NCBI GenBank assembly: GCA_947041165.1
Contig: CAMRCY010000016.1
Location: forward strand, 1-47,489
Length of the DNA stretch: 47,489 nucleotides
DNA from: an uncultured Deferribacteraceae bacterium
Lineage (GTDB): Bacteria > Chrysiogenota > Deferribacteres > Deferribacterales > Mucispirillaceae
Reading direction: 5' to 3'
Below, piece after piece: positions 3,853 to 47,161 of the stretch. The notes beneath the pieces are model-generated. The model was given only the letters and a program-made list of their open reading frames with translations. It was not told the DNA's origin and ran no database searches. The position numbers were made by a program, and so were the translations under genes. Numbering within the stretch: the stretch's first letter is position 1; every line of letters begins with the position of its first letter.

Positions 3853-3913
3853 TTTGATTGTACTATTATTTGTTTATAAGATTTTAATTGTAAAAATTTA
3901 ATCTTAATATATT

Positions 3914-3955: not shown

Positions 3956-4104
3956 GAAAATATGTAGATTAGAAATAATTAACTAAATAGTTTCTAGGTA
4001 TTTTAAGTTGATATAACTCAACACAGTAAAATATATTAGTACATATAAAAATTTTAGCTGGATACAGCTTTGTTCTATAATATAACTCTAATCGCAAATA
4101 TATT

Positions 4105-4158
4105 ATAAAAATATTATTTATCAACATCGACTAATTTATACTCTAAACTTCTAAACAA
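4105..4158 (-). pseudogene. Relic copy of the 3' end of the DUF362 gene
   Basis: About 50 bp at 4105-4155 is nearly identical to 4243-4293, the last codons of the neighbouring DUF362 gene, at an offset of 138 bp. Read on the minus strand it gives LFRSLEYKLVDVDK and a stop at 4114, against KFGSLEYKLVDVDK in the intact gene. Several differences are synonymous (GTA/GTC and GTG/GTT for Val, TTC/TTT for Phe). An in-frame TGA sits just upstream in the relic, so only this fragment survives. It looks like the remnant of a once-coding duplicate. Confidence 0.6.
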
Positions 4159-4251
4159 TCATGATATCAGAAGACTGCACAGCTGATGTTGATATATTTA
4201 CATTGCTAAATAGTTTTAGCTATCATCATATAACTTAATAAAATAAAAATA

Positions 4252-5322
4252 TTATTTATCCACATCTACTAATTTATACTCTAAACTTCCGAACTTAATT
4301 CTTTCTGCGTGTGTAAATTGATCTGTTGGATCAAGATGAGGCCACGCCTCTTGAAATAAATCTTTGCCTGCTGTGTGGTTAATAATATCATAAGATGCTT
4401 TATCTATTGCAACTGGATCGGTTGATGACATAAACCCTATATCATGAATCATCGGTGCATCGTTACCATCATGACAATCGCACGCTGGAACAATTGATGT
4501 TAATATATTTATATAGATCGGGGGTTTTGTGTAATGGTTATGAACAGCTGATGCGTATTCAACAATTCTTTGCTGAAGCTTATCACATGAAACATCAAAA
4601 TCTGATTGAATAGCAGTTTCAGGACAAGTTGCAATACATTTTGCACAACCAGTACATTTATCATTTATTGTCGCTGTCTTAGATATCTCAATCGCTCCCC
4701 AATTACAAACCATCTTGCATCGTCCACAAGCTGTACATTTATGAGGATTAACCGATGGTCTTACATCTGAGTGCATATCCATTTTGCCCTCTCTTGATGC
4801 ACAACCCATTGCAAGGTTTTTTAATGCTCCACCGAAACCTGTCATCTCGTGTCCTTTAAAATGTGAAACAACTAATAACTTATCTGCATTTGCAATATCA
4901 GTTGCGATCTTCGCATCTGTGCATACTATTGCATTTGGGATAGGAAGGCTTATGCTATTTTCTCCCCTTAATCCATCTGCAATTATCACGGGAACTTGTA
5001 ATGTTGAATAATTAAAACCGTTAAGCATAGCGTTGTGAAGATGATCTACTGAATTTGTACGCATACCTGTATATAAAGTATTTGTATCTGTTAAAAATGG
5101 TTTAGCTTTCACTCTATTTAAAATCTCTAAAATCGGACGTAAAAATATCGGACGTAAAAAAGCTGTGTTTCCTAACTCTCCAAAATGAACCTTGAGAGCT
5201 ACAAGTTCGTCCTTTTCATACAGATCTGTTATTCCAGCTCTATTTGCTAATTTTTTAATCTTATTTAACGGAGACTTATGATGATTGCTCTTCATAGAAG
5301 AAAAATATACCACTGAACTCAT
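4252..5322 (-). CDS. DUF362 protein with two [4Fe-4S] ferredoxin clusters
   Basis: This 356-residue protein is of the DUF362 family. The N-terminus MSSVVYFSSMKS and the later KVHFGELGNTAFLRP and SHFKGHEMTGFGGALKNL are family landmarks. Around residues 190-240 are two CxxCxxCxxxC motifs (CTACGRCKMVC and CTGCAKCIATC) for two [4Fe-4S] clusters, so an electron-transfer or redox role is likely; the substrate is unknown. The start at 5322 was chosen over an upstream TTG at 5340 because GAGGG precedes it at proper spacing. A small in-frame duplication gives FLRPIFLRPI. It is convergent with the antiporter gene, and a relic of its 3' end lies downstream at 4105-4158. Confidence 0.8.
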   Translation of the reverse strand: MSSVVYFSSMKSNHHKSPLNKIKKLANRAGITDLYEKDELVALKVHFGELGNTAFLRPIFLRPILEILNRVKAKPFLTDTNTLYTGMRTNSVDHLHNAMLNGFNYSTLQVPVIIADGLRGENSISLPIPNAIVCTDAKIATDIANADKLLVVSHFKGHEMTGFGGALKNLAMGCASREGKMDMHSDVRPSVNPHKCTACGRCKMVCNWGAIEISKTATINDKCTGCAKCIATCPETAIQSDFDVSCDKLQQRIVEYASAVHNHYTKPPIYINILTSIVPACDCHDGNDAPMIHDIGFMSSTDPVAIDKASYDIINHTAGKDLFQEAWPHLDPTDQFTHAERIKFGSLEYKLVDVDK

Positions 5323-5432
5323 TTTTAACCCTCTTAACAATTTATTTCAATTATATTAGATAACTACGACTTTATTATAGGTTTTCTTGGTGAGAATAAC
5401 AACTATAAATATGAATGTAATATAGATTATTG

Positions 5433-5460
5433 TTGACAGAAGAATAGAAATAATGATAAA
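5433..5460 (+). promoter_or_regulatory. Candidate sigma-70 promoter for the IclR gene
   Basis: A consensus -35 TTGACA (5433-5438) is followed after 16 bp by GATAAA (5455-5460) as a weak -10. The IclR-family start codon lies 39 bp downstream. The perfect -35 is the main support. Confidence 0.4.
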
Positions 5461-5498
5461 AATAATACAGCGTTTTAAAAAGAGAGCAATAAATTAAT

Positions 5499-6302
5499 AT
5501 GATAAAAGATTCGAATGGCATTAAAAGAGCAAAAACCGACTACAAAGTTTTTGCTGTGAGCAACACCATAGCTATTCTAGAATTATTAGGAGAGTTTGAG
5601 CAGGAACTTACTCTCTCTGAAATAAGTGATAGGCTATCACTCACTAAAAGTAACACATCTAAACTGTTAGCTACACTTGAACATTTTGATTATGTTGAAT
5701 ACAATAGAAATAATGACAGCTTTACATTAGGTGTGAAAACTTTCCAAATTGCACAAACATATATCAAAAAATTGAACATAGCAGAAATTAGTTATCCTTA
5801 TCTTAAAGAGATTACCGATATTCTCGACGAATCATCGTATGTTGGTATTGTTGACAACGGTACAGTTGTTTATCTAAACATGGTAGACACATCTAAACCG
5901 ATTAGACTTAAACCTCGTGTTGGACATATCGGACATGCATATGCAACTGCAATCGGTAAAGCACAACTATCTAAACTTGATAATCAAGAGATAGAAATTC
6001 TTTTTAGAGATGGATTTCAATCTGTTACAGAAAATACTGTTACAACAATCGCTGATCTTATAAAAGAACTAGATGTAATAAGAGAGATCGGATACGCTAC
6101 TGATAATGAAGAGTTTGAAAAAGAGGTTGTCTGTGTTGCCGTTCCTGTAATGGATTTTATGGGCAAAGCAACTGCTGGTATCGGTGTTTCTGCTCCTAAA
6201 GTTAGAATGAGCAATGAACGCATAACTGATGAAATCGCTCCTCTACTTATAAAAACAGCTATGCAACTATCCTTTAAATTCGGCTACAGTGAATCCAAAT
6301 AA
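5499..6302 (+). CDS. IclR-family transcriptional regulator
   Basis: This 267-residue protein has an N-terminal winged helix-turn-helix (about residues 20-80, with LTLSEISDRLSLTKSNTSKLLATLEHF cut here only by description: LSEISDRLSLTKSNTSKLL) followed by the IclR effector-binding domain (about residues 85-260). The domain includes YVGIVDNGTVVYLN, HAYATAIGKAQLS and VAVPVMD, all typical positions. IclR proteins are dimeric repressors or activators responding to small organic acids. The effector and targets here are unknown. It diverges from the DUF362 gene with a 176-bp gap, so that gene is a plausible target. GAGAG precedes the ATG as a modest ribosome binding site. Confidence 0.88.
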   Translation: MIKDSNGIKRAKTDYKVFAVSNTIAILELLGEFEQELTLSEISDRLSLTKSNTSKLLATLEHFDYVEYNRNNDSFTLGVKTFQIAQTYIKKLNIAEISYPYLKEITDILDESSYVGIVDNGTVVYLNMVDTSKPIRLKPRVGHIGHAYATAIGKAQLSKLDNQEIEILFRDGFQSVTENTVTTIADLIKELDVIREIGYATDNEEFEKEVVCVAVPVMDFMGKATAGIGVSAPKVRMSNERITDEIAPLLIKTAMQLSFKFGYSESK

Positions 6303-6496
6303 CGTCTTGATAGTTTAAAACTTTTAGAATAATTTTATAATCGTTATCGATATTTTGATGAAGATAATCTATATACTCTCATCTAAACCGTAATATATTT
6401 ACTATATAAATAACTTTTATAATTATTATCACCACCTAACCCTTATATAAGTATTCAACCTATTATTCAGATCTACATAACTTACTGAAACTCTCT

Positions 6497-11529: not shown

Positions 11530-14500
11530 ATGAGAATTACATTTAACATGATGTCAATGAAGTATAACAGTTCAATAAGCTCATCATTAAATGGACTGAT
11601 TGAAGCAGGGGATAGAGTGAATGCACAGCAAGATCTTTTGAAACCTGAGCAAAATGCATCAGGATATGTTTCAGCTTACAACATACAAAGAACAATTGAT
11701 GAACTTAATCAGTTTAAAGAAAATGGTGAAACGGCAACTGGTTGGATTGGAAACAGTGAAACAGTATTAACTGATGCATTAGCAAAACTAAAGCAAGTTA
11801 AAGCTGATTTTGCAGTTGGTGGTGCTAACGCAACAAATGATGCTGATGCAAGAGCTGCTATGGCAAAAGAAGTTGCTACAATAATGGAATCTCTGATGGC
11901 ACATGCTAATAGTACTTATCTTGGCAGACATATATTTGGTGGGTTTGAAACAGGTACTCCACCTTTTTCTGGAAGCGGAAGCTCTATATCAAATATATCA
12001 TCAAGCGCGCTTGGATCAACTAGTATAGAAACTAAACCTGTGTATTCAGATATGGGTGAGCTTGCAAGTGGTACTTATAAAACAAAAATCAGTGTTGTTA
12101 ACGGTATTGCAACTGTAAGCATACTTGATTCTAACGGCAAACCTGTTCCACTTGATTCTAATGGATCTGATGAAGCAAATCAGAAAGGAAATTCTACATC
12201 AAATACATTATCGTTTAAATATAAGCCTGGACAAGTTGTAAATACTGGACTAGGTTTCTCTATTCAAATGCCTGATAAAGATATTACAAATACTGAAATG
12301 ACTGTTGGATTTGATTATAAAGCTGGATCAGAAGTTAGTTACTCTGGTGATATGGGTTCTATATTGTCACAGATTGGATACGATCAAAATGTTGCAATGA
12401 ACACTCCTGGTAGTGATATCTTTATGCAATCTTTCAAAACATTGCTATCGACAAAAGTATTAACATCTAACGGTTCTATAGCCAATCTTGCAACACTATT
12501 ATCTGAACTTGATGGAAATAAATTTGCTACAGGCGATTCTATGAACATCTCTGGGACAGATAGTCAAGGACGTCCCATCGGTGCTGCAACAATTGTATCT
12601 CCTATTAATCCTGAACTAAATCATAACAACACAACTGATGAAGAAAGAACTTTAAAAGTTGCTTACGGTAACAAAATGTATCAAGTTGTTATTCCTAAAG
12701 GAGATTATGCTTCAGCTGAAAAATTAGCTGAAGCTGTACAAGAACAATTAAAAACTGCTGAGTATATCGGTTCTATAAATGTTCCTGCTGAAGGATATGA
12801 TGAACTTAACGATTTTAAAAACTCAATTGAACAACAGATAGATAGTGGCTACTTTACTCCTGCAACTGGGGATGAAAAGAAAAAAACCGTTGATCTTTCT
12901 AATGATGTTTCAGTTACTTCTGATGGTGATAGATTATCTTTTTATACAAACAAAGCAGGTGATAATGTTCAACTTGCTATATCTGGCGCTGAAGGAAACA
13001 GTTTAGGCTTCACAAGTGGAGTGACTGTTGCTGAAGGTAAAGATACTCAATTTGACTTTGGAACAACATATAATAATAATGGTATCGAAAATGTTAGCAC
13101 TACACATCCTAATATAGATTTCTCTGCTGGTGGACAATTTGAGTTCTTTATTAATGGGAAACCAGTATCTGTAAATCTTCCTGCAAGAGGGCCTATAACT
13201 ACTAATGATGTTACAGCGACTACTGGATATAATGGAACTAATGATTTCAATATAACAATTGATGGTAAAAATGTTAACGTTCCTGCTGCACAGCTTAACG
13301 GTAAAACTGTTGCTGAACAAGAAAAAATAATAAACCAAAAATTGATAGATTCAGGATTTGGCGGAAGTAACTCTGTATCTTTAACTAACACTGGTGGAGT
13401 ATACACTGTTGATCTAAATAGTGCGACTGCTCCTACTAAAAAAGATATAGAATTTGAACTTCAAGCTGCATTAAATTCAGCAGGATTTAATGGTGATATA
13501 TCTTCTTCATTAAATTCTGTAAACAGTTCAGATCCTAACGATCTTGGTAAATTTGATATCTCATTCGCTGTTGTTAATAATAATATGAATGATTCAACTC
13601 AGATCAATACTGTTTATTTAGATAATAATGCTGTTCCTCCTACTAAAGACATGCAGACAGATATACCAAATATTAAACAAACTCCTGGTCAGAATAATAC
13701 TACCATGGGCGACTATATGAAGTTCTTAAATGATCTATATGGTGAAACTGCAAAAGTTTCATTGGTTGATGGTAAAGTACAAGTAAAAGATATTCGTAGT
13801 GGCGAAAATAGTGAATTAACTTTCTTTCAAAACTCAACAGAGTCAGGACTTCAATCCAATGATGATAACGATCTTGTAATCGGCGGAAAATACAGTGGAC
13901 AAGGTGATGTTACTTGGGGTGTTGATATGACCAATAGCGTTGGTGCTGATGGTTCTAGAACTGTTCACATATCAATTAAAGATATCAACGGTCTTGAAGT
14001 ATATAATCAAAGTGTTAATAACTATCTTGGTGGAGAGATCACATTGCCGAGTGGTGTAACTATTACTCCTAACGAAAACCAATTTCCAACTCCTCCTGAA
14101 ACAAGTTTAACATCATCTTTTAATCTAGATCTTGTTGATGATACAAAAGTATCATTTGGAGTAATGAAAGTTACTGATAATGGTAGTAATGATAACTTAT
14201 TTAGAGTATTAACAAATCTGGAACATGCATTAAAATATAACCTCGATAAAAATGGTTTTAGTTTTGCTAAACCTGAAGGAAGTCCTTGGGAAAACTCATC
14301 ACTTGGATCAAGTTCTATGCCAAGCTTTGATGGAACATATAAAGGTAATTATAACGATAACTGGAAATATGAAGTAATGCAAAATGGTTCTAAAGATGAT
14401 TTCTATATACAAAATGAATCGTATTCATCATCTGGTAAAGTAGGTTTTGATCAAAATACAATTAACAATCTTGGTAATGAAATATCATTCGGTGTTAATA

Positions 14501-15888
14501 TGTATGATAATGTTACTGGTAAAAGCTCTACAGTAAATATGGATATAGATCTATCAAAAGCTAATCCACCATTAACTGATGCTGCATCAACTAGTGCTTA
14601 TATAGCTAAAGAATTAAACAATAATCTAGAATTAAAAGCACAAGGAATTACCTATGCTGTAGATAGCGATGGCAAAATTGTAATGGAATCTAATAGTGGA
14701 ACAAAAATAGTTTCATTCGCAGAAAATCTAGAGCCGTTACCAGGTGGTGCAAATAAAAACATTCTAAGTGATTTCATAATGGGATTTGAACCTTTAAAGA
14801 ATGAGCCAGTAACAACTGCTTTCCCATTAACTTTAACTGATACCGATTTCTATATAACAGATATAGGAGATACTGCAAATCCATCTAAAAAGATCACTTT
14901 GCCAGCTCCTGCTACTTATGCGACTAAAGAAGAGTTACTTACTGCAATTAATACAGAATTAACTGCTAGTACTGCTGGTAGAGTTACAGCAGCTATGAAT
15001 GAAACTACTGGTGCATTAGAGTTCTCAGGTGCTGGTGCTAATCCAGATGATCCACGTGTATTTGTTAATTCATACGGTAATGATGAGCTAGGAATTACAA
15101 CTTCTTCTGATACTCGTACTCAAGTTTCTGCCACATCTCCTCAAAATCCTACTATCAGCCTTGCAGATAAAACTGATGAAGAGAGAACTTTAACTTTTAA
15201 CTATATCGATGCTGCTGGTACTCAAAGAACCAAATCAATTATGTTAGATAAGAAAGATTATGAAAGCAATGAAGCATTAGCTCAAGAGATTAATAGAGTA
15301 ATCGCATTAGATCCTGATCTTACTGGACTTGATGCTAAAATTAATACTCAAGGAAGGCTAGCATTCACAACTGATCCTGCTACAATGAGTGGCTTATCGG
15401 TAGAGAGTGATCATCAAGGTACATTAGGATTTCCTAAAGCAGGAGATCAAGCAACTATAAAAGTTACCTCAGAAAATGGTGGGACTATTCAAGAAGTTAC
15501 TGTCGATACAGCTACTGATTCTACATATATTGCCGATGGCTTATATCTATCTTTTGGTAAAGGGGAACTAAATGCTACCGACTATTTCACAATAGGCATT
15601 GGAACTGGTATTGAAGAACAGATAGATTATCTTGACCAAATTGAGAAACAACTTTTAGAAGCTGTTGCTGATGTTGGTAGTAGATTATCAAGAACTGAGT
15701 CTGTAACAACTTTTCATACAACTGTGATCGGAGCAAGCGAGGCTACTAAATCAACTTATCTTGGATCAACTCCTCAAGATATTGCAGCTGCAATGACTGA
15801 TCAAGCACTTGCTAAATCAGCTTATGAAACAGCTTTAAGAATAACTAGTAGTATCTTCGATATATCATTGTTAGACTTTTTAAGGTAA
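11530..15888 (+). CDS. flgL: Giant flagellar hook-associated protein 3 (FlgL)
   Basis: This 1452-residue protein is several times longer than a usual FlgL (about 300 residues in enterobacteria). Residues 1-150 are a FlgL N-terminal domain (MRITFNMMSMKYNSSISSSL, TGWIGNSETVLTDAL, TYLGRHIFGGFETGTPPF). The last 120 residues are the matching C-terminal helices (LEAVADVGSRLSRTESVTT, ALRITSSIFDISLLDFLR). The middle, about 1150 residues, is beta-rich and Asn/Thr/Ser/Gly rich, as in surface-exposed D2/D3 domains. At least two related modules are visible, starting with DEERTL at residues 370 and 1216 and ending near LGF at about 490 and 1298. It probably forms the hook-filament junction with a large external ornament. 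It reads through as one unbroken frame. Confidence 0.92.
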   Translation: MRITFNMMSMKYNSSISSSLNGLIEAGDRVNAQQDLLKPEQNASGYVSAYNIQRTIDELNQFKENGETATGWIGNSETVLTDALAKLKQVKADFAVGGANATNDADARAAMAKEVATIMESLMAHANSTYLGRHIFGGFETGTPPFSGSGSSISNISSSALGSTSIETKPVYSDMGELASGTYKTKISVVNGIATVSILDSNGKPVPLDSNGSDEANQKGNSTSNTLSFKYKPGQVVNTGLGFSIQMPDKDITNTEMTVGFDYKAGSEVSYSGDMGSILSQIGYDQNVAMNTPGSDIFMQSFKTLLSTKVLTSNGSIANLATLLSELDGNKFATGDSMNISGTDSQGRPIGAATIVSPINPELNHNNTTDEERTLKVAYGNKMYQVVIPKGDYASAEKLAEAVQEQLKTAEYIGSINVPAEGYDELNDFKNSIEQQIDSGYFTPATGDEKKKTVDLSNDVSVTSDGDRLSFYTNKAGDNVQLAISGAEGNSLGFTSGVTVAEGKDTQFDFGTTYNNNGIENVSTTHPNIDFSAGGQFEFFINGKPVSVNLPARGPITTNDVTATTGYNGTNDFNITIDGKNVNVPAAQLNGKTVAEQEKIINQKLIDSGFGGSNSVSLTNTGGVYTVDLNSATAPTKKDIEFELQAALNSAGFNGDISSSLNSVNSSDPNDLGKFDISFAVVNNNMNDSTQINTVYLDNNAVPPTKDMQTDIPNIKQTPGQNNTTMGDYMKFLNDLYGETAKVSLVDGKVQVKDIRSGENSELTFFQNSTESGLQSNDDNDLVIGGKYSGQGDVTWGVDMTNSVGADGSRTVHISIKDINGLEVYNQSVNNYLGGEITLPSGVTITPNENQFPTPPETSLTSSFNLDLVDDTKVSFGVMKVTDNGSNDNLFRVLTNLEHALKYNLDKNGFSFAKPEGSPWENSSLGSSSMPSFDGTYKGNYNDNWKYEVMQNGSKDDFYIQNESYSSSGKVGFDQNTINNLGNEISFGVNMYDNVTGKSSTVNMDIDLSKANPPLTDAASTSAYIAKELNNNLELKAQGITYAVDSDGKIVMESNSGTKIVSFAENLEPLPGGANKNILSDFIMGFEPLKNEPVTTAFPLTLTDTDFYITDIGDTANPSKKITLPAPATYATKEELLTAINTELTASTAGRVTAAMNETTGALEFSGAGANPDDPRVFVNSYGNDELGITTSSDTRTQVSATSPQNPTISLADKTDEERTLTFNYIDAAGTQRTKSIMLDKKDYESNEALAQEINRVIALDPDLTGLDAKINTQGRLAFTTDPATMSGLSVESDHQGTLGFPKAGDQATIKVTSENGGTIQEVTVDTATDSTYIADGLYLSFGKGELNATDYFTIGIGTGIEEQIDYLDQIEKQLLEAVADVGSRLSRTESVTTFHTTVIGASEATKSTYLGSTPQDIAAAMTDQALAKSAYETALRITSSIFDISLLDFLR

Positions 15889-27543: not shown

Positions 27544-28890
27544 ATGAAAGATAATAGTACTTGGTTAAATATTCTTGAAATTCTTAAGAACGAACTTACT
27601 GAAGCAGAAATTAATCAATGGCTTTCACCGCTTAACATTAAAACATTGAACGGTAATCCGATTATATTAACTGCTCCTAATAAATTTTTTAAAACATGGG
27701 TTGAAGATAATTATCTCACCTTAATTAAAAAAACATTTAAAGAAAATTTAGGATTAAAATCTGATATCGACATAATTATATCTATCGAAAATAAAGATGA
27801 TCAAACAATTCGCACAGTATCAGTTGAAAGAAATGTTACAACAACTGATACAACTTTTGATCTACCACTAAATAAAAGATTTACATTTGATAACTTCGTT
27901 GTAGGCACATCTAACCGTTATGCACATGCTGCTTGTTCATCACTCATAAGTGGTAAAACAACAGCGAACCCATTATATATATACGGCGATGTTGGACTTG
28001 GTAAAACTCACCTCATGCACGCAGTTGGTAATGAGTTTAAAGAACGCTTTCCTAAATATAGAATACTTTATACAACTGGTGAATCTTTCGTTAATGATTT
28101 TGTTACATCTATGCGTCTTAGCAAACTTGATAGTTTTAAACAACGATACTTAAACATTGATCTTTTTCTATGTGATGATGTACAATTTATCGCTGGTAAA
28201 AGCAGAACGATGGAAGAATTCTTTTTTACATTTAGTCAACTTTATGCAACTCAGAAACAGATCGTTCTTACATCTAACACATCTCCTAACAACATTAAAG
28301 AACTTGATCCTAGATTATCATCAAGATTTACATCAGGACTTATGGTCGATGTATCAACACCATCTGTTGAAGAGAAAGAAGCTATCATAAAAAAATATAT
28401 CGAGATCGAAGATCTAACAACTCAACGGTTCTCTGATGACATAATAAGATATCTTGCAAACAATCTTAAAAGTGATAGTACTCGTGAAATCTTAGGTGCA
28501 ACTCTTAGAATATTTACATTAGCATCCATAGATAATGAAGATATAACTATTCAATTTGCAGAGAAACATCTTAAAGATTTCTTAATGAAAAGAGATAAAA
28601 CATTATCGCCCGATAGCATACTTGAACTTACTGCAAAATATTATCAATTAAAAGTTAGTGATTTAAAATCTAAAAATAGATCTAAAACGATCGCTCTTGC
28701 AAGAAGTATTGCTATGTATCTTATACGTGAAAAAATGTCGTTATCGTACACAGAGATCTCTTCTATCTTTAGTAGAGATCACTCAACAGCACTTCACGCA
28801 GTAAATAAAATTACCGATGAATTATTAACAAATCATGAACTAGAAGGCACAATAAATGTCCTTCTAGATAAGATGAAACTTATCCATTAA
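27544..28890 (+). CDS. dnaA: Chromosomal replication initiator DnaA
   Basis: DnaA (448 residues, normal length) binds DnaA boxes at oriC and melts the origin. Domain I is at about residues 1-75, followed by a short linker. The AAA+ core has Walker A GDVGLGKTH, Walker B LFLCDDVQFI, and sensor/arginine-finger regions. Domain IV ends with the DnaA-box-binding signature SRDHSTALHAVNKI. A GGGAG site precedes the ATG at 4-5 nt. Its 3' neighbour is dnaN, the standard origin gene order. Confidence 0.98.
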   Translation: MKDNSTWLNILEILKNELTEAEINQWLSPLNIKTLNGNPIILTAPNKFFKTWVEDNYLTLIKKTFKENLGLKSDIDIIISIENKDDQTIRTVSVERNVTTTDTTFDLPLNKRFTFDNFVVGTSNRYAHAACSSLISGKTTANPLYIYGDVGLGKTHLMHAVGNEFKERFPKYRILYTTGESFVNDFVTSMRLSKLDSFKQRYLNIDLFLCDDVQFIAGKSRTMEEFFFTFSQLYATQKQIVLTSNTSPNNIKELDPRLSSRFTSGLMVDVSTPSVEEKEAIIKKYIEIEDLTTQRFSDDIIRYLANNLKSDSTREILGATLRIFTLASIDNEDITIQFAEKHLKDFLMKRDKTLSPDSILELTAKYYQLKVSDLKSKNRSKTIALARSIAMYLIREKMSLSYTEISSIFSRDHSTALHAVNKITDELLTNHELEGTINVLLDKMKLIH

Positions 28891-37474: not shown

Positions 37475-39004
37475 ATGAGTAAAGAAAATCAATTGAATAA
37501 TGTTGATAAAGAAACGACTAGTAATTGTAATAGTCGTGTTAATAGTAACAGCAATATTAATAGCGACAGTATTAATAGTCGTGTTAATGGTAATTGCAAT
37601 AGCAATAGCAATAGTCGTGTTAATAGTATGAGCAATATTAATAAAGAAACGATCGTTGCACCGATAACTGTTGTGCTAACTTCTCCTGTCATAGTGGTGC
37701 GTATTTCAGGCGTAGAGGCGATTAAGACATTCAACCTTATACAGGATAGAAAAGGTATGTCAATCGCATCTATAGAGCCAAATAAGGTGTATTTTGCTAA
37801 GTTTATATCTTTATATGATGGGTTTTGTGATGATGTTTTAGTAACATATTTTAAAGCACCATATTCATATACTGGCGAAGATGTAGTTGAGATATCATTT
37901 CATGGTAATCCTATCCTTATCGCATCTGCTTTAAGATCTTTTTATGATCTAGGGTTTAGAGATGCTAGAAATGGTGAGTTTACTATGCGAGCATTCTTGA
38001 ATGATAAAATATCATTGAATGAAGCTGAAGCTATACAAGAATTCATTTCATCAGATTCAGATATATCATTACGATATGCTTATGAACAGATGAATGGTTC
38101 TGTTGGTGTTTTGTTTGACAGTTTTAAATCTGAACTACTTAACTGTAAAGCTATATTAGAAGCTGATATTGATTTTGCTGAAGATACAGATATTTCTAGT
38201 ATTTATGCTAGATTGCTCATGATAGTTAATCCGTTATTAGCTCAGATTGAGGAGCTTTTAATATCTTATAAATCATTAAGATCTATTAGTAATGATGTTA
38301 ACTTAGTTATTGTTGGTAAGCCGAATGTAGGAAAATCATCTCTACTTAATAAACTTTTAGATAGCAATAGAGCGATCGTTTCATCTGTTGCAGGCACTAC
38401 AAGAGATTTTATTAGTGAAAGGTTTTTGATATCTGGAATACCAGTAACAGTTACAGATACAGCAGGGATCAGAGAATCAACTGATGAAATTGAAAGTATA
38501 GGTATATCGAAATCATTAGAAGTTGTTAGTAAAGCTGACATTGTTTTGATATTGTTTGATCTTAATGATGGTGATTTATCTATTCTTGATGACAAAAACA
38601 TTGATACAATTATAAACTCTAGTAATGGCAATAAGGTTATTAAGGTTGGTAATAAGAGCGATTTAGAACATAGTATCGATCTATTAAAGTTTGATATAGT
38701 TATATCATCTAAGACTGGTGAAGGTATTGACAAACTATTGTTATTGATTAAAGAGATTGTTTCAAGCAGTAGAGATATTAAACCTAACTCTATCGGCATT
38801 GTGTCAGAAAGACATGCTATGTTATTAGATAGCGTTAAGCTTTCGCTTGAGTCTGTAGTTAACAATATTAGTAATAGCTTTCCAGAGGATATGATCATAT
38901 TAGATTTAAATGAGTCTATTAGAAAGATAGAAGATATCACTGGTGAGAACTATACAGAGGATGTTCTCTCGATTATCTTTAATAAGTTTTGTATCGGGAA
39001 GTAG
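37475..39004 (+). CDS. mnmE: tRNA modification GTPase MnmE with repetitive N-terminal extension
   Basis: MnmE (509 residues as called, usually about 450) works with MnmG on U34 of tRNAs to install the cmnm5 group. The TrmE N-domain begins at KETIVAPITVVL (about residue 58) and contains PYSYTGEDVVEISFHGN. The G domain has GKPNVGKSS, AGTTRDF, DTAGI and NKSD, and the end is the catalytic CIGK. Residues 1-57 are an Asn/Ser/Arg/Val-rich extension not found in ordinary MnmE. An alternative ATG at 37628 (residue 52) lies right before the conserved domain but has no ribosome binding site. The conserved start region is somewhat altered (PVIVVRISG), so I retain the full frame. Confidence 0.93.
   Translation: MSKENQLNNVDKETTSNCNSRVNSNSNINSDSINSRVNGNCNSNSNSRVNSMSNINKETIVAPITVVLTSPVIVVRISGVEAIKTFNLIQDRKGMSIASIEPNKVYFAKFISLYDGFCDDVLVTYFKAPYSYTGEDVVEISFHGNPILIASALRSFYDLGFRDARNGEFTMRAFLNDKISLNEAEAIQEFISSDSDISLRYAYEQMNGSVGVLFDSFKSELLNCKAILEADIDFAEDTDISSIYARLLMIVNPLLAQIEELLISYKSLRSISNDVNLVIVGKPNVGKSSLLNKLLDSNRAIVSSVAGTTRDFISERFLISGIPVTVTDTAGIRESTDEIESIGISKSLEVVSKADIVLILFDLNDGDLSILDDKNIDTIINSSNGNKVIKVGNKSDLEHSIDLLKFDIVISSKTGEGIDKLLLLIKEIVSSSRDIKPNSIGIVSERHAMLLDSVKLSLESVVNNISNSFPEDMIILDLNESIRKIEDITGENYTEDVLSIIFNKFCIGK
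37529..37627. repeat. Short repeats in the 5' part of mnmE
   Basis: AATAGTCGTGTTAATAGT occurs at 37529-37546, 37574-37591 (one change) and 37610-37627, encoding NSRVNS-like units. AATATTAATA and AGCAATAG microrepeats fill the rest. Also, GATAAAGAAACGAC (near 37505) resembles ATAAAGAAACGATC at the canonical MnmE start (near 37642), as if the gene start was duplicated with the expansion. Confidence 0.85.
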
Positions 39005-39084: not shown

Positions 39085-39100
39085 TGTTTCACGTGAAACA
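39085..39100. promoter_or_regulatory. parS site 1 (ParB/Spo0J binding)
   Basis: TGTTTCACGTGAAACA is an exact match to the 16-bp consensus palindrome of chromosomal parS. ParB binds it, spreads along DNA and loads condensin near the origin. Confidence 0.95.
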
Positions 39101-39186
39101 TTGATATTATGTAGATGTGTTAAAGTTATAAATTATTTGGTGTGGTTAAGTTGTATCTATTCTTATAAACTACAAGTGTTGTTAAA

Positions 39187-39202
39187 TGTTTCACGTGAAA
39201 CA
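39187..39202. promoter_or_regulatory. parS site 2
   Basis: Exact 16-bp parS palindrome, 102 bp from site 1. Confidence 0.95.
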
Positions 39203-39291
39203 TTGTGATGATTGGTTGTCATAAAAGAATGTCATCAGTTTCGGCAGTATTTAAAATTGATACCTAAGAAAGTTTTATTATATTATGGTTG

Positions 39292-39307
39292 TGTTTCACG
39301 TGAAACA
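39292..39307. promoter_or_regulatory. parS site 3
   Basis: Exact 16-bp parS palindrome, 105 bp from site 2. Confidence 0.95.
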
Positions 39308-39401
39308 TAATAGCGATAACTTGATGTGAAGTGTTCTTGATTGTATTGGGACAATCTAAAGCTAGTGACTTAGATAGTTCGGTGTTTTTGCAGGGTAGTC
39401 A

Positions 39402-39417
39402 TGTTTCACGTGAAACA
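39402..39417. promoter_or_regulatory. parS site 4
   Basis: Exact 16-bp parS palindrome, 110 bp from site 3. Confidence 0.95.
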
Positions 39418-39488
39418 TAATTGTTATACTGTTGGGTTTGTGATCGTTAAGTAGTGCTGTGTTTATTAAGCAGTATTATGTTTATTAG

Positions 39489-39590
39489 TAGTGCAGTTAT
39501 TGAGTGGCATTATAGTGTTAGTGTTAGGTTGTAAGTACTATGTTGATTGGTAGTGCAGTTATTAAGTAATATTATAGTTATTAAATAGTG
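39489..39590. repeat. Two ~35-bp diverged repeats, 62 bp apart
   Basis: TAGTGCAGTTATT is present at 39489-39501 and 39551-39563, each followed by a related AGT..ATTATAG stretch. It lies between parS sites 4 and 5. Confidence 0.6.
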
Positions 39591-39684
39591 TTATGTCCAT
39601 TAGTGGTGACTAGACTATTTTATATAATTATAACTATGCAGGATAAATATTTGTTAGTTGTTTTATGTTTGTTTAGAAAACATA

Positions 39685-39700
39685 TGTTTCACGTGAAACA
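39685..39700. promoter_or_regulatory. parS site 5
   Basis: Exact 16-bp parS palindrome, 283 bp from site 4 and 36 bp before the mnmG start. It probably overlaps the mnmG promoter or leader. Confidence 0.95.
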
Positions 39701-39735
39701 TTATGTGTGTAGTTTGTAAATAGAGGTTCCTAAAA

Positions 39736-41562
39736 ATGTTTAAGAAGTATGATGTAATAGTTATTGGTGCAGGGCATGCAGGTTGTGAAGCAGCATTAGC
39801 ATCGGCACGCATGGGTGCAAGTACATTGCTATTAACTATATCTATTGAGAGTGTTGCGTTAATGCCATGTAATCCAGCGATAGGTGGGATAGGTAAAGGT
39901 AATCTAGTTAAAGATATGGACGCCTTAGGTGGCGAAATGGGATTGAATATAGATGCAACTGGGATACAGTTTAGAATATTAAACAGAAGTAAAGGCGTAG
40001 CTGTGAGAGCAACAAGAGCTCAAGCTGATAAGTATCTTTATAAAGATAGAATGCTTACAACAATATTTGATACACCGAACCTAGACTTAAAGCAAGGGAT
40101 TGTTACAGATATTAATGTTAATAATAATGAAGTGGAGTCAGTAAGCGTTGCATCAGGTGAACAGTATTTCTGTAAGAAGATAGTTGTTACAGCAGGGACT
40201 TTTATCGATGGTCATATATATATCGGCAGTATGAGAATGTCTGCAGGCAGAATGTATGAACCTGCAAGTGTTGCTTTAGGAGAGTCGTTAACTAAGCTTG
40301 GTTTAAATCATTTCAAGATGAAAACAGATACGCCTGCAAGGATTAGGTTTGATTCTATAGATATCAGTGGACTAGAAGTTCTATCATCTGACAGTGGAGA
40401 TATAACATTTTCTGGAGAGGGAGTTAAGAATAATCTAAAGAATATAGATTGTTATCTAACATATACTAACGAGGAAACTTGTAGAATAGTTGCTGATAAT
40501 ATTAAAACATCACAATTATATAGTGGAGAGATCGCTGTAAAAGGCCCGAGATATTGTCCATCTATTGAAGATAAGATCAAAAACTTTCCAGAGAAAACCT
40601 CTCACAATATAGTTATAGAGCCTGAAAGTTTAGATATGTTTGAGTGTCATATTAATGGTATGTCAACATCTCTTCCATATGATATACAAGTTGCAGCTTA
40701 TAGATCTATTAAAGGATTAGAAAATGCTGTATTTACAAGACCAGCATATGCGATAGAGTATAATGTTTACGATCCGAAAGATTTGTATTACTCATATGAA
40801 TCAAAGAAAGTAAAAGGATTATACCTTGCAGGACAGCTTAATGGAACATCAGGATATGAAGAGGCAGCTGTACAAGGTTTCATGGCAGGGGTTAATGCTG
40901 TTCTATCTATTGATAAGAAAGAACCTTTAATCTTAGGCAGAGATGAAAGTTATATCGGTGTTCTAGGTGATGATATAATGAGTAAAGGTGTTGATGAGCC
41001 TTATAGAATGTTTACATCAAGAGGCGAGTATAGACTTCTATTAAGGGAAGATAGAGCAGAGGTTCGGTTGTTAGGATATGGATATAAGCTTGGACTTATC
41101 GGTAAACAAAGATATGATAGGTTTTTAAATGATAGAGAGTTAATAGATTTAGAGATAAAAAGACTTATTAAGTTAAAGGATAAAGATAAAAACATATCGT
41201 ATCATGATCTATTAAAAAGACCTGAAGTGCTATATAGAGATATGATTAAAGAGAGTGGTATTGATGCTGGAAATCTATCTGAAAAGTTGATAGATCAATT
41301 AGAGGTAGAGATTAAGTATAAAGGGTATATAGATAAAGAGCAGAAAGAAGTTGAGAAAGCAAGTATCTATGATGATATTTTAGTGCCTAATTCTATAAAT
41401 TATAAATCTATTCCAGGGCTTAGATTAGAGTATGCAGAGAAGATTGCTTTATTACAACCTAAGAGTTTAAAAGAGATAAGAAGTGTTCCAGGGATTTCTC
41501 CATCTGCAATATCGGTTATAGCAATTGAGATATCAAAGATAGCGAAAGAAAATAATACTTAA
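39736..41562 (+). CDS. mnmG: tRNA U34 carboxymethylaminomethyl synthase MnmG, paralog 1
   Basis: This 608-residue FAD-dependent MnmG homologue (usual length about 620-630) partners MnmE in cmnm5U34 synthesis. The N-terminal FAD motif is VIGAGHAGCEAALASARMG. The key cysteines are present in PCNPAIGGIGKGN and GPRYCPSIEDK. Also present are LAGQLNGTSGYEEAAVQG and EPYRMFTSRGEYRLLLRED. The usually invariant KTGTPPRI is KTDTPARI here, with Asp for Gly. The start has AGAGG 9 nt upstream. A second mnmG follows 165 bp later, and which of the two is the main enzyme is unclear. Confidence 0.9.
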   Translation: MFKKYDVIVIGAGHAGCEAALASARMGASTLLLTISIESVALMPCNPAIGGIGKGNLVKDMDALGGEMGLNIDATGIQFRILNRSKGVAVRATRAQADKYLYKDRMLTTIFDTPNLDLKQGIVTDINVNNNEVESVSVASGEQYFCKKIVVTAGTFIDGHIYIGSMRMSAGRMYEPASVALGESLTKLGLNHFKMKTDTPARIRFDSIDISGLEVLSSDSGDITFSGEGVKNNLKNIDCYLTYTNEETCRIVADNIKTSQLYSGEIAVKGPRYCPSIEDKIKNFPEKTSHNIVIEPESLDMFECHINGMSTSLPYDIQVAAYRSIKGLENAVFTRPAYAIEYNVYDPKDLYYSYESKKVKGLYLAGQLNGTSGYEEAAVQGFMAGVNAVLSIDKKEPLILGRDESYIGVLGDDIMSKGVDEPYRMFTSRGEYRLLLREDRAEVRLLGYGYKLGLIGKQRYDRFLNDRELIDLEIKRLIKLKDKDKNISYHDLLKRPEVLYRDMIKESGIDAGNLSEKLIDQLEVEIKYKGYIDKEQKEVEKASIYDDILVPNSINYKSIPGLRLEYAEKIALLQPKSLKEIRSVPGISPSAISVIAIEISKIAKENNT

Positions 41563-41727: not shown

Positions 41728-43602
41728 ATGGTAAATAAAGATATATATGATGTTATAGTTGTTGGTGCAGGTCATGCAGGTTGTGAGGCAGCATTAGCTT
41801 CAGCTAGACGTGGTTTTAATACAATGCTTATAACAATATCGATCGATAAGATGGCGTATATGAGCTGTAACCCTGCGATAGGTGGATTAGCTAAAGGCTC
41901 ATTAGTTAAAGACCTAGACGCCTTAGGTGGCGAAATGGGTAAGAATATAGATGCAACATTTATACAATTTCAACTACTAAACGAGAGTAAAGGAGTTGCA
42001 GCAAGAAGTTCTAGAGCACAAGCCGATAAGCGTAAATATTCAGAGCGAATGAAGAAGAGTATGTTTAGTCAATCTAACCTAACTGTTAAGCAAGCGATTG
42101 TTTCAGATATATTGGTTAATGATAAAGTTGTATATGGAGTAAGAGCTGTATCTGGTGAAGAGTATCATTCAAGTAAGGTTGTGGTTACGACTGGTACATT
42201 TTTGAATGGAAAGATATTTGTTGGTGATAAGAGTTATGAAGGTGGAAGGATGAATGACATATCATCAACACATTTAGTTAGTTCGTTAACATCACTAGGT
42301 TTCGAGCCTATAAGATTAAAGACAGGAACGCCTGCAAGGGTTGATAAGCGAAGTATAGATTTTGATAAAGTACAAGCATATAAGAAAGAAACTACAAGAA
42401 AAGGATTTTCATTTGAAACAGATATATTGGATGATGATAAGATAGATTGTTTCATAACATACACTTCTGAGATAACACATAAGGTTGTTAGGGATAACAC
42501 ACATAGATCGTTATATTTCAATAATAAAGATAAGGCTTTAGGTCCTAGATATTGTCCATCTATGGAGGATAAGGTATCTAAGTTTCCAGATAGGGAGCGT
42601 CATTTAATTGTTTTAGAGGAAGAAGGGATCGGCAGCAATGAGATATATATTAATGGGTTCTCATCATCACTTCCGATAGATGCACAACTTGCGGCATATA
42701 GAACTATTATCGGATTAGAGCGAGCAGAGTTTATTAGGCCAGCATATGCGATAGAGTATATAGCATATCAGCCAACAATATTGAAGAAGAGTTACGAAAC
42801 AAAGTTAATAGATGGATTATATTTTGCAGGACAGATTAATGGAACATCAGGATATGAAGAGGCAGCAGTTCAAGGATTTATGGCAGCGGTTAATGCCACA
42901 TTATCGATTGAAGGTAAAGAGCCGTTTATACTTCAAAGGGATGAAAGTTATATAGGTGTTATGACAGATGATTTAACGACTATCGGTGTTGATGAGCCAT
43001 ACAGGATATTTTCATCAAGGGCTGAGCATCGGATGAGATTAAGAGAGGATAATGCTGAGGCTCGGTTATTAAAATATGGTAAAGATTTAGGGTTAATAAC
43101 AGATAAAAGGTATAGCAGGTTTTTGGATGATTGTGTTGTTGTGAGTAATACAATTGAGAAGTTAAAGGATACTAAAATAAGGATATCAGATAAGAATATA
43201 GTTGATATAATATCTAAATATAATATAATACTTAGTGAGAGTGTGACGGCGTATGATTTCTTAAAACGTCCTGAGGCAAGCTACGCTATTTTGGAAGAGA
43301 TGAACTTAGTTGATCCGATAGATGCGAAGCTTAAAGAACAGGTTTGGATAGAGATATTTTATGAAGGATACATTAAGAAAGAGGAGCAAGAAATTGCTAA
43401 ATCTAATAAGTTAGAGTTTATACGCATTCCACAGAGTATAGATTATGGTTCAGTTTCAGGATTAAGGTTAGAGCAGGTTGAAAAGTTAAAGAGGATAGTT
43501 CCTGAAAATTTAGGACAAGCTTTACGAATTCCTGGAATGACACATAATGCAATATCGATGTTAGAGATCGCTATAGAGAAGATTAAAAAAAGTATAATAT
43601 AG
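41728..43602 (+). CDS. mnmG: tRNA U34 carboxymethylaminomethyl synthase MnmG, paralog 2
   Basis: This 624-residue MnmG is closer to the canonical sequence: VGAGHAGCEAALASARRG, MSCNPAIGGLAKGSLVKD, KTGTPARVD, GPRYCPSMEDK, FAGQINGTSGYEEAAVQG, and DEPYRIFSSRAEHRMRLRED. Both catalytic cysteines are present and the KTGTP motif is intact. It is followed 12 bp later by rsmG, the classic gidA-gidB order, so this copy is probably the orthologue and paralog 1 the extra gene. TAAGGA precedes the ATG by 8 nt. Confidence 0.93.
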   Translation: MVNKDIYDVIVVGAGHAGCEAALASARRGFNTMLITISIDKMAYMSCNPAIGGLAKGSLVKDLDALGGEMGKNIDATFIQFQLLNESKGVAARSSRAQADKRKYSERMKKSMFSQSNLTVKQAIVSDILVNDKVVYGVRAVSGEEYHSSKVVVTTGTFLNGKIFVGDKSYEGGRMNDISSTHLVSSLTSLGFEPIRLKTGTPARVDKRSIDFDKVQAYKKETTRKGFSFETDILDDDKIDCFITYTSEITHKVVRDNTHRSLYFNNKDKALGPRYCPSMEDKVSKFPDRERHLIVLEEEGIGSNEIYINGFSSSLPIDAQLAAYRTIIGLERAEFIRPAYAIEYIAYQPTILKKSYETKLIDGLYFAGQINGTSGYEEAAVQGFMAAVNATLSIEGKEPFILQRDESYIGVMTDDLTTIGVDEPYRIFSSRAEHRMRLREDNAEARLLKYGKDLGLITDKRYSRFLDDCVVVSNTIEKLKDTKIRISDKNIVDIISKYNIILSESVTAYDFLKRPEASYAILEEMNLVDPIDAKLKEQVWIEIFYEGYIKKEEQEIAKSNKLEFIRIPQSIDYGSVSGLRLEQVEKLKRIVPENLGQALRIPGMTHNAISMLEIAIEKIKKSII

Positions 43603-43614
43603 GAAGTACACAGT

Positions 43615-44244
43615 TTGATAGTAGGTAAAGATATATATGTTGATGATGGTATAGTAGAGAAGTTAGAATTGTTTTATGAATTGCATAAAAACGCTACACT
43701 TAATCTTACTAATATTAAGGATAGAGATGAGTTTTATTGCAAGCATTATTTAGATAGTGTTTATTTATTTCATTTAGCAGAGATTGCAAAGTCTGTTAGA
43801 TATTTTAAAGCAAGTGATAAGTTGGCAGATGTAGGATCAGGTGGTGGTTTCCCAGGGATAGTAATAGCTATATGTTACCCTGAAATGAAGGTTACATTGA
43901 TTGAGTCTACACGCAAGAAGTGTGACTTCCTAAAAGATGCTGTATCTAAATTAGATCTAAAGAATGTTACAGTAATAAATGACCGAGTAGAAAACCTTGA
44001 GGGTTTTAAGTTTAATTATGTAACAGCTCGTGGTGTTGCAAAGGTTGATAAAGTTCTAAAGCAAACAGCGAATGTTTTAGGAAAGAAGTTTAAGATTATT
44101 TTATATAAAGGTGAGATGCTAGAAGAAGAGTTAAAAGATGCGTCAGGCACTATAAATCACAGAGGGTTAGATATTGAAATTACCAGGATTGAAGAGATTT
44201 TTAAACGTAGTTATTGTATTATTAGTGGGGATATCAATAAGTAG
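43615..44244 (+). CDS. rsmG: 16S rRNA (guanine-N7)-methyltransferase RsmG
   Basis: RsmG (GidB, 209 residues) methylates G527 of 16S rRNA. The conserved CKHYLDSVYLF and the SAM-binding KLADVGSGGGFPGIVIAI are present, together with LIESTRKKCDFL and VTARGVAKVDKVL. The start is TTG with AGGAAG 8 nt upstream. The 3' end overlaps the next gene's start by 71 bp. Confidence 0.95.
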   Translation: MIVGKDIYVDDGIVEKLELFYELHKNATLNLTNIKDRDEFYCKHYLDSVYLFHLAEIAKSVRYFKASDKLADVGSGGGFPGIVIAICYPEMKVTLIESTRKKCDFLKDAVSKLDLKNVTVINDRVENLEGFKFNYVTARGVAKVDKVLKQTANVLGKKFKIILYKGEMLEEELKDASGTINHRGLDIEITRIEEIFKRSYCIISGDINK

Positions 44245-45736
44245 TTGTGCGAGCGTTTCATCTCAAAGAGATTCTTTTGATATATATAAATATGTTAATC
44301 AAGAGTTGAAAACAGATGATATTGTTAAGCTAAGGTTTTATGCTGCAGGCAATGATAGCAGTGTAGCTAATTCTGCAACATTATTTTTAGGTTACTACTA
44401 TTTAATAAGTGGTGATAGAGCATACGCTAAATTTTTATTTGAAAAAGTTAATCTAAATGAAATAGCTGATGAAGATATAAGAATGTTTTATGATCTATGG
44501 TTATACGATTTGCTTGTTGAAGTAAAAGATAGAAATAGAGCAAAAAGAATTGCCAATAGATTGAAGAATAGAGAGATGACAGTTCAGTATCAAAGTGTTT
44601 TAGAAAGTTATTGCGATCAGCTTAATGTAAAGCTTAAAGATGGTGAATCTCCTATTAGATGTATAGATGATAGACTTAGGATTAAATCGTTAAAAAATAT
44701 AAATAAAATCAATACAAATATAAAGAACATAGAAGATGGAATAGTTAATATGGATCAGAGCACAGGTATTCCATTGATCGTTCCAGATAGTGCTATCAAC
44801 AATAGAGAGATGAGTGGCAGTAATGATATCAGTATTATTGATGAGAGTAACAAGAAGCAAGAAGAGAGAAGTTATGTGCGTTCTGTTGATGAAAATGTAG
44901 TGATAAATATTATTGATTCAAACATAGAAAATCAACATGTTAAAGGTATGATATATAATATGCAAACGCTCGGATCAAAATATACAATCAAAACTGTTGA
45001 TAGAGATTATGTGATAGAAGAAGATAATGAAGTGTTAATTAATCTTGATAATAGAACTATTTTAGTTAACGGTAATTATGTCAATTTTAATACTTCATTT
45101 AATCAGTTATTAGATATGACTGCAACCTTGTCGGTCTTTGATAGGAATGCAGAGGTGTTGATTACTGTTTCAAACGATAAACAAGATGAAGCAAGATATA
45201 TGCAAGAACTGTTAGCAAACATGAATATTAGAGCGGAGATATATGTTGCAAGTAATGGTTCAACAGATCTACAAAACTATCTACAAAATTATTATGAAAC
45301 AAATGAAGAGAAGAGTATCGTAAATGTTATCATAAGTGATGATGATCAGCTGGAAACTATTCTTCCGATTGTAAGATATACACAGACAGATGATAACCTG
45401 CATAAAGTTGTGGTTGTAACAAGTTCGTTAAGTTCGTTAAGTTATAATGATGATTATAAAGTATATTTTAAGAAGATACACATTGTTACACCAAACCTAT
45501 ATATTATTGATGACAAGATCGGATTGTTGTCAGAGAAGTATAATGCATTTTTCGGTGAAGAGATGAGTTATAGCAGTATGATAGGTTACGATATGATAGA
45601 GTTTATAACTAGTAATATAAATGATGTACAGGGAAAATATTTAACAAATATAGTTAACATAGAAAATAATAATACAGTTAGATATCCTAAAAAATATTAT
45701 ATCAATTTGAACTATAAATTAAGAGAGATAAGGTAA
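44174..45736 (+). CDS. Lipoprotein with a possible PBP-activator / periplasmic-binding fold
   Basis: This 520-residue protein starts with TTG, supported by AGAGGG 7 nt upstream. It has a lipoprotein leader (MKLPGLKRFLNVVIVLLVGI, then SISSC, lipidated Cys25). The N-terminal part (about residues 30-160) is helical and TPR-like. A Ser/Asn-rich linker follows. The C-terminal 230 residues alternate short beta and helical segments (AEVLITVSNDKQDEARYMQ, VVVVTSSLSSLSYND) as in type I periplasmic-binding folds of LpoA and related PBP activators. It overlaps rsmG and lies 3 bp before an MltD-like gene, so a peptidoglycan role is plausible. The match is structural guesswork, not a clear family hit. Confidence 0.6.
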   Translation: MKLPGLKRFLNVVIVLLVGISISSCASVSSQRDSFDIYKYVNQELKTDDIVKLRFYAAGNDSSVANSATLFLGYYYLISGDRAYAKFLFEKVNLNEIADEDIRMFYDLWLYDLLVEVKDRNRAKRIANRLKNREMTVQYQSVLESYCDQLNVKLKDGESPIRCIDDRLRIKSLKNINKINTNIKNIEDGIVNMDQSTGIPLIVPDSAINNREMSGSNDISIIDESNKKQEERSYVRSVDENVVINIIDSNIENQHVKGMIYNMQTLGSKYTIKTVDRDYVIEEDNEVLINLDNRTILVNGNYVNFNTSFNQLLDMTATLSVFDRNAEVLITVSNDKQDEARYMQELLANMNIRAEIYVASNGSTDLQNYLQNYYETNEEKSIVNVIISDDDQLETILPIVRYTQTDDNLHKVVVVTSSLSSLSYNDDYKVYFKKIHIVTPNLYIIDDKIGLLSEKYNAFFGEEMSYSSMIGYDMIEFITSNINDVQGKYLTNIVNIENNNTVRYPKKYYINLNYKLREIR

Positions 45737-45739
45737 ACA

Positions 45740-47161
45740 ATGACCAATTTATTTAGAATAAGTTTTACGAGATTAATGGTACTCCTTTCTCTCTTTATAA
45801 CTATTAGTTGTGCGAAGAATAAAGAACTCGTTTCATACGATGAAAGTTCGTTAACACATCTGTTAAGTGATGAACATAATTTAGAAGATCTTGAAAGCAG
45901 TATTGAAATTACAGAGTCGAATGAGCTGTTATTATTAGTTCCAGATATTAGTCTTTACTCGTCAATAGTTGAGGGTAGAGAGAATATTACAGAGTATGAA
46001 TATTTTTATGAGATGAAAGAGTTTAATGTTCCGATAGTTATGACACCAAGAGTTCAACGCTATATAAAATACTTTACTGAGAAAATACCAAAAGTAACAC
46101 AGAAATGGTTAGATAGAGCAAATAAATATATGTATGTAGTAGAAGATGTTTTTCTAGAAGCAGAGCTACCATCAGATTTAGTAGCTTTAGCCTTTACAGA
46201 GTCGGGATTTAACAATCATGCTATTTCACGAGTAGGTGCAACAGGAATGTGGCAGTTTATGCCAAGCACTGGTAGAATGTATGGAATGAAGAACGATTTT
46301 TGGGTTGATGAGCGAAGAGATTTTGAGATTTCAAGTAGATCAGCAGCGAGGTTTTTAAGCGATCTTTATAAAAGGTTTGATGATTGGTTCTTAGCATTAG
46401 CAGCTTATAATGCAGGGCCAGGAAGAATACATCGTGCATCAGTAAAACATAAAACAGATGACTTCTTTAAGATTGCAAGCACAAGAACTTTAGCGCTTGA
46501 AACAAGAGATTATGTACCAAAGTTTATTGCATTATTAATCATTTATAAAAACTATCTTAAATTTGGTTTTGAAGCTCCTAAAAGCACTCCATTATTTTTC
46601 TCTAAAATAGATATAAATTCACAAGTTAATTTGTTTTGGTTATCTGAGAAATTAAATATTAAATTTGAAGATCTCATAGAGTTGAATCCATCATTAAAAG
46701 TAGGTATAACACCACCTGTTAAAACATATTCATTAAGAGTTCCTTATGGAAGAGGTAATGAGGTTCTTGATCTATTAAGCAAGACAGATAAGGCTGAGAG
46801 ATTGCAATACACCCTTGTTAATGTTAAAGGTGGAGCAAATATTAAAAAGCTAGCAAAAAAATATGGTGTAAGTTTATCAAGATTAAAAGATATAAATTGT
46901 CTTGATGGAAATACAGTTTTACAAAGTAAACCGTTATTACTTCCAATAAGTAAATATTCAGATAAAGATATGGATAAAGGTATATCAAAATTATTAAACA
47001 AATATACCCCAAAATATTATGTTGTCAGAAGTGGTGATACTTTTATCGCAATCGCACATAAACATGGAATGAAAACTACATCATTAAAACGCCTTAACCC
47101 TAGAATAGGTAATGTGCATAAATTGCGTATAGGACAAAAAATAGTTATCAAAAGTAGATAA
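45740..47161 (+). CDS. mltD: MltD-like membrane-bound lytic murein transglycosylase with LysM
   Basis: This 473-residue lipoprotein has a leader ending FITISC (Cys24). The SLT catalytic domain spans about residues 115-245 with DLVALAFTESGFNN (catalytic Glu154), VGATGMWQFMPSTGRMYGM, and LALAAYNAGPGRI. Three LysM-like modules follow. The last is clear (YYVVRSGDTFIAIAHKHGM, then RIGQKIVIKS, residues 425-473), and the first two are divergent. It cleaves glycan strands to 1,6-anhydro-muropeptides. It lies 3 bp after the lipoprotein gene, so the two are probably cotranscribed and coupled. Confidence 0.93.
   Translation: MTNLFRISFTRLMVLLSLFITISCAKNKELVSYDESSLTHLLSDEHNLEDLESSIEITESNELLLLVPDISLYSSIVEGRENITEYEYFYEMKEFNVPIVMTPRVQRYIKYFTEKIPKVTQKWLDRANKYMYVVEDVFLEAELPSDLVALAFTESGFNNHAISRVGATGMWQFMPSTGRMYGMKNDFWVDERRDFEISSRSAARFLSDLYKRFDDWFLALAAYNAGPGRIHRASVKHKTDDFFKIASTRTLALETRDYVPKFIALLIIYKNYLKFGFEAPKSTPLFFSKIDINSQVNLFWLSEKLNIKFEDLIELNPSLKVGITPPVKTYSLRVPYGRGNEVLDLLSKTDKAERLQYTLVNVKGGANIKKLAKKYGVSLSRLKDINCLDGNTVLQSKPLLLPISKYSDKDMDKGISKLLNKYTPKYYVVRSGDTFIAIAHKHGMKTTSLKRLNPRIGNVHKLRIGQKIVIKSR

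Follow-up and report, generated by a model that had tools for sequence, protein, structure and literature searches.

Five identical parS sites between mnmE and a duplicated mnmG as the probable single centromere cluster of a Deferribacterota bacterium

The intergenic gap between mnmE and mnmG of an uncultured Deferribacteraceae gut bacterium harbors the same palindrome five times, and this raises the question of what the repeated sites do and whether the distance between them has a meaning of its own. The window analyzed in the present work is the whole stretch of DNA represented by the entire 47.5-kb contig C16 (47,489 nucleotides); it belongs to a genome (G000) of 2.14 Mb, 70 contigs, and 98.6% completeness. 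An initial annotation of this region had described five exact parS sites, the first four at intervals close to ten helical turns, so that bound ParB would lie on nearly the same DNA face, and had remarked that parA and parB do not follow rsmG.

A pattern search of the window retrieved five exact copies of TGTTTCACGTGAAACA, starting at positions 39085, 39187, 39292, 39402, and 39685, with site-to-site spacings of 102, 105, 110, and 283 bp; the sites of the initial annotation were thus recovered with the same coordinates and spacings. The first one (39085..39100) is a perfect 16-bp palindrome located 81 bp 3' of the mnmE stop codon; it is followed by exact matches at 39187..39202, 39292..39307, 39402..39417, and 39685..39700, and the start codon of the first mnmG copy (mnmG1) lies 35 bp beyond the last of them (no strand is assigned to the sites or to their spacers). 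Dinucleotide-preserving shuffles of the window gave on average 0.27 matches with up to three mismatches and never reached five; moreover, the number of perfect parS sites expected from base composition in the 2.14-Mb genome is about 0.0007. According to these data, a chance origin of the five sites is excluded. A genome-wide count, which the initial annotation had proposed, returned no perfect sites other than the five in the window, and allowing up to two mismatches added one match with two mismatches (contig C30), a yield not exceeding that of the reversed-pattern control. This match is not a credible parS, and the array is the sole parS cluster in the genome.

The array is embedded in the gene order dnaA-dnaN-recF-gyrB-gyrA-folD-mnmE-(five parS)-mnmG-mnmG-rsmG-unclassified ORF-mltD. 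The dnaA gene (27544..28890, + strand) and the start of dnaN (29212) place the presumed oriC at a distance of about 10 kb from the array; the parS sites are therefore clustered near oriC, the placement of which is presumed from gene order. The left neighbor of the array, here as in all the four sampled members of the genus, is mnmE (37475..39004, + strand), whose frame begins (37475-37650) with about 50 low-complexity residues rich in N, S, and R, so that the true start may be located downstream. On the right side, mnmG1 (39736..41562, + strand) and the second mnmG copy (41728..43602, + strand), both matching the MnmG equivalog TIGR00136 above its cut-off, precede rsmG (43615..44244, + strand). 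Downstream of rsmG, in agreement with the initial annotation, there is no parAB; the place is occupied by an unclassified ORF (44174-45736), having no match in Pfam or NCBIfam, and then by a gene coding for an MltD-like lytic transglycosylase (45740-47161).

The tandem mnmG pair did not appear in the initial description of the locus. The two paralogues share about 51% identity, and the tree traces both to a single duplication basal to the family that contains the genus (f1; clade support 100/99); both copies are faster-evolving in the study genus, where the length of their stem branches is about 0.8 changes per site. The search for structured RNAs in Rfam, carried out over positions 26000-47489, did not retrieve any match. 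Elsewhere in the window, an ORF of 1452 residues (11530-15888) follows flgK, in the position of flgL, and far exceeds the typical size of FlgL.

The parA and parB genes, whose location the initial annotation had left to be checked, form a canonical operon, which is found on a different contig, C14 (locus L039). The chromosomal parB (4616-5560) codes for a protein of 314 amino acids with the Pfam domains ParB_N, HTH_ParB, and ParB_C, and parA (5557-6327) is directly upstream of it; the order of the genes in the region 3018-6327 of the same locus is parA-parB-bactofilin-tpiA-secG. Among proteins of solved structure, this ParB is nearest to those of the ParB family and to Noc; it harbors the CTP motif GERRWRA and the recognition region GKSR...EGHGR. 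An R and a G are absolutely conserved at two positions of parS-binding ParB proteins, whereas Noc has a Q and an R (PMC7383237); at these specificity positions the protein analyzed here carries R and G, and it is thus of the parS type rather than of the Noc type. The genome also encodes an SMC protein, with a score above its cut-off. Altogether, it encodes three ParB-like proteins. The second one (L040, 2425-5957) is flanked by TrbC/VirB2-like and T2SSE/VirB11-like genes, which points to a mobile element, so that this locus is probably an integrated conjugative element; the third one was discarded as the chromosomal ParB, since its score falls under the ParB cut-off.

We then checked the locus in the genus, in the family, and in the order; the literature searched contained no relevant paper on parS in Deferribacter or Mucispirillum. 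Three to five parS sites are present in the gap between mnmE and mnmG1 in all four species sampled from the genus (G000, G035, G036, and G037), and in the last three the array likewise contains the only good parS sites of each genome. The spacings are 102, 105, 111, and 50 bp in G035 (one site of which has one mismatch), 113 and 109 bp in G036, and 103, 106, and 104 bp in G037. Two other genera of family f1 (g2 and g3) harbor one parS before mnmG1 and a second one between the mnmG copies; in g2 each parS precedes an mnmG copy by a few tens of bases, an arrangement suggestive of the doubling of a parS-mnmG unit. No remnant of such a site was detected between the mnmG copies in the study genus, where the best match has six mismatches. 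A perfect or one-mismatch parS was found in all the 46 genomes of the order searched; in the other families, the mnmE-mnmG-rsmG locus mostly has one or two sites. Among the loci read, these are located at the mnmE-mnmG junction in families f3-f6 and inside rsmG in families f2-f6, some genomes carrying both, and family f7 is variable. In several genomes of the order the palindrome abuts the mnmE stop codon.

The parAB genes are usually origin-proximal. In the study genus they share a contig with the array in G036 (parB at 72947-73184, array at 37511) and in G037 (39397-39725 and 3394, respectively), that is, about 35 kb away and on the side opposite to dnaA. In other families of the order, parAB is separated from parS by between about 42 kb and over 100 kb (e.g., G018, G011, G013, and G015), several families exceeding 100 kb. 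Given this separation across the order, the absence of parAB after rsmG characterizes the order as a whole and is nothing peculiar to this genome. In the set G006, G011, G013, G015, G018, and G023, several genomes that are finished or nearly so have parAB more than 100 kb away from both parS and the origin.

The only parS sites of the genome, together with a canonical parA-parB operon and an SMC protein, indicate that the array is almost certainly a single centromere cluster; we assign a probability of about 0.93 to the array being the centromere of the chromosome and the sole parS cluster of the bacterium. The five sites and their absence from the rest of the genome, the conserved locus, the complete parA/parB/smc set, and the parS-recognition residues of ParB are directly established. 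By analogy with known systems, ParB, encoded with ParA on the other contig, would bind the five identical sites; upon binding CTP it would close to a clamp, slide onto the flanking DNA, and build the partition complex. ParA would then move this complex, and SMC would be loaded at the array, so that the newly copied origin region would separate first. In principle, the palindromes might instead be operators or nucleoid-occlusion sites acting on mnmG, as their position just upstream of mnmG1, whose start is 35 bp away from the last of them, might suggest. This is very improbable, since the sites have the exact parS consensus rather than that of a Noc site, the ParB harbors parS-type residues and scores 220.6 bits against the Noc model, whose cut-off is 315, and the parS sites of other families are located within rsmG or at other places that do not precede a promoter.

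If the array is the centromere, the next question is whether the spacing of its sites reflects a rule. The proposal of the initial annotation, a separation of ten helical turns that would place the bound ParB dimers on a common DNA face, drew on spacings (102, 105, and 110 bp) close to 105 bp, and similar values do occur in the three relatives. However, at 10.5 bp per turn sites 1-4 point to 0, 257, 257, and 69 degrees, and thus do not lie on nearly one face; the fifth, at 51 degrees, does not complete a helically phased array either, and spacings of 110 and 111 bp miss the register by half a turn. The 11 different spacings of the genus have no significant phase clustering at 10.5 bp (R = 0.36, p ~0.23) nor at periods of 10.0-11.0 (p 0.17-0.68), and, among the matches listed, 101 independent arrays of other bacteria, with one spacing sampled per locus, give no 10.5-bp signal (R = 0.114, null 95% limit 0.170). 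The approximate distance is therefore conserved in G035, G036, and G037, whereas the helical phase is not: the drift from 102 to 113 bp spans a whole helical turn, and what the relatives contradict is the phase alone. Once CTP is bound, ParB clamps slide away from parS, and this makes a fixed DNA face unnecessary. The literature searched contained no relevant paper on helical phasing of parS. Helical phasing is thus rejected by the sites themselves, by the spacings of the genus, and by the 101-115 arrays found elsewhere among the matches listed, and we consider it highly unlikely.

Regularly spaced parS sites are not confined to this genus. At least 115 contigs from many phyla have three or more perfect parS at spacings of 96-126 bp; this sample was selected for such spacing and is not representative of bacterial parS spacing overall. 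Among the matches listed, the hosts include Bacilli, Clostridia, Treponema, Bifidobacterium, Alphaproteobacteria, Patescibacteria, and others, and of the array stretches fetched, 33 also encode gyrA and 40 parA, with rsmG too on some. Among the same matches, neighboring spacings separated by similar spacers differ by a mean of 2.7 bp versus 10.0 for the null, whereas dissimilar spacers are not significantly regular (8.8 bp versus 9.95 bp by chance pairing, P = 0.08). Judging from their sequences, regular parS arrays generally look like tandem duplications, not like the product of a spacing rule. The array of the study genus shares with them three or more perfect parS at a spacing of 96-126 bp; its location between mnmE and a duplicated mnmG was found, among the stretches read, in this genus only.

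The alignment of the spacers with those of G035 allows the comparison of two scenarios for the regularity of about 105 bp. Spacer A (39101..39186, 86 nt) and spacer B (39203..39291, 89 nt) are 77% and 75% identical, without gaps, to the first and second G035 spacers, respectively. The third spacer (39308..39401) measures 94 nt and its G035 counterpart, with which it is not alignable, 95 nt; the fourth (39418..39684) measures 267 nt against 34 nt in G035 and contains degenerate, G/T-rich internal repeats, i.e., a 45-nt unit present twice (39472 and 39534) and 19-nt units. Spacers A and B together have 42 substitutions (about 24% of bases) and no indels over 175 positions. Within the syntenic region, the 14 intergenic gaps that could be aligned have 219 substitutions and 30 gap events in total (0.14 indels per substitution, summed by hand), a rate at which about 5.8 indels would be expected in spacers A and B versus none seen (P ~0.003); a wider set of 28 intergenic gaps gives 0.31 indels per substitution (bootstrap P ~0.0002), both values referring to two spacers chosen for the test after their equal lengths had been noticed. 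The scarcity of indels in these sequences hints at a length constraint, and a weak distance constraint on parS spacing is possible.

In one scenario, distance rather than phase would be selected, a separation of about 100-113 bp favoring, e.g., independent clamp loading or short-range bridging. Consistent with it, only two adjacent spacings across the four species fall outside 102-113 bp, spacers A and B have no indels against 0.14-0.31 per substitution in other orthologous gaps, the third spacer keeps its length while being unalignable, and the mnmE-mnmG gap as a whole varies from 310 to 731 bp. Nevertheless, the fourth spacing is 283 bp in G000 but 50 bp in G035, and, among the matches listed, near-equal spacing elsewhere is confined to visibly duplicated spacers and the distribution of spacings between 96 and 126 bp in other bacteria is almost flat; furthermore, the two spacers were tested only once their equal length had been seen. 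We thus consider such selection doubtful, and regard as a tentative and rather unlikely idea that a distance of about 100-113 bp, free of any helical register, is maintained in the centromere of this genus while the spacer sequence turns over. In the other scenario, which appears somewhat probable, the regularity would be a mere trace of tandem duplication and common descent, without present function. Spacers 1 and 3 of G037 are duplicates (79% identity, z ~12), spacer A of G000 resembles spacer 3 of G037, and spacer 3 of G035 resembles spacer 2 of G036 and spacers 1/3 of G037; in addition, regularity tracks spacer similarity in the arrays found elsewhere among the matches listed. Against it, the absence of indels in 175 diverged positions would be unexpected under free drift, and the third spacer of G000 is similar to no other spacer, yet its length fits. 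A recent tandem duplication within G000 finds no support, as its spacers 1-3 have no mutual similarity in comparison with dinucleotide shuffles, and TRF did not find any long-period tandem array in the region. Since spacers 1-3 are not detectably related, duplication is deduced from the relatives rather than seen in this genome, and on these comparisons it would explain part of the regularity of about 105 bp.

Returning to the array as the centromere, its origin may be depicted as follows. The array would have arisen in the genus by local multiplication of one parS at the mnmE-mnmG junction, a site still present across the order, and the loose spacing of about 105 bp, devoid of helical register, would derive from old duplication and possibly from weak selection on distance. 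The presence of a single parS at mnmE-mnmG and/or inside rsmG in five other families supports the ancestral site, and the duplicated spacers 1 and 3 of G037 show that parS sites have multiplied by duplication.

The comparison with known parS systems places the array among the origin-proximal clusters. Myxococcus xanthus has 22-24 parS about 30 kb from ori (PMC3899335, PMC3778016), 22 of which lie within a 3.12-kb fragment (PMC3899335). As in G000, this is a dense cluster near the origin; however, the M. xanthus cluster adjoins parAB, which is apart from the array in the study genus (by about 35 kb in G036 and G037), and G000 has five sites, all identical, against 22-24. The bactofilins of M. 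xanthus work with ParABS (PMC5703909), a link that the bactofilin gene after parB in G000 recalls. In Pseudomonas aeruginosa, any one of the four oriC-proximal high-affinity sites parS1-4 is enough for segregation (PMC4368675); that species has six more, distant parS, whereas G000 has none. Corynebacterium glutamicum has ten parS, with several identical 16-bp sites near oriC, of which one suffices and more give larger ParB complexes (PMC7083940); the ten form three nucleation zones, while those of G000 are found in one intergenic gap. The sopC/parSF centromere of the F plasmid, a compact set of twelve 43-bp tandem repeats with ParB-binding inverted repeats (PMC6238139), is likewise a regular array of ParB-type inverted repeats, but it is plasmid-borne and belongs to a 16-bp motif family different from that of G000 parS. 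Streptomyces and Listeria have up to 20-23 parS, and one parS often suffices (PMC7333895). In vitro, the condensation force grows with the number of parS, at least 5-7 sites being needed for detection (PMC8299390). In every testable feature, the array of G000 fits the known origin-proximal parS clusters. ParB binding, clamp sliding, segregation, and SMC loading would accordingly take place at this array as they do in those systems, if the analogy holds.

The reasons for the clustering of parS and for the variable number of sites are, according to a review, an open question (PMC7333895). The study genus represents a natural series in this respect, from one ancestral mnmE-mnmG site in most families to three to five sites within a single gap in four closely related species, in which site number and spacing can be compared without noise from distant sites. 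The phasing idea can be dropped whichever scenario applies to distance. Selection on distance, if real, would amount to a new design rule for bacterial centromeres; otherwise, the genus would offer a well-documented case of centromere growth through local duplication.
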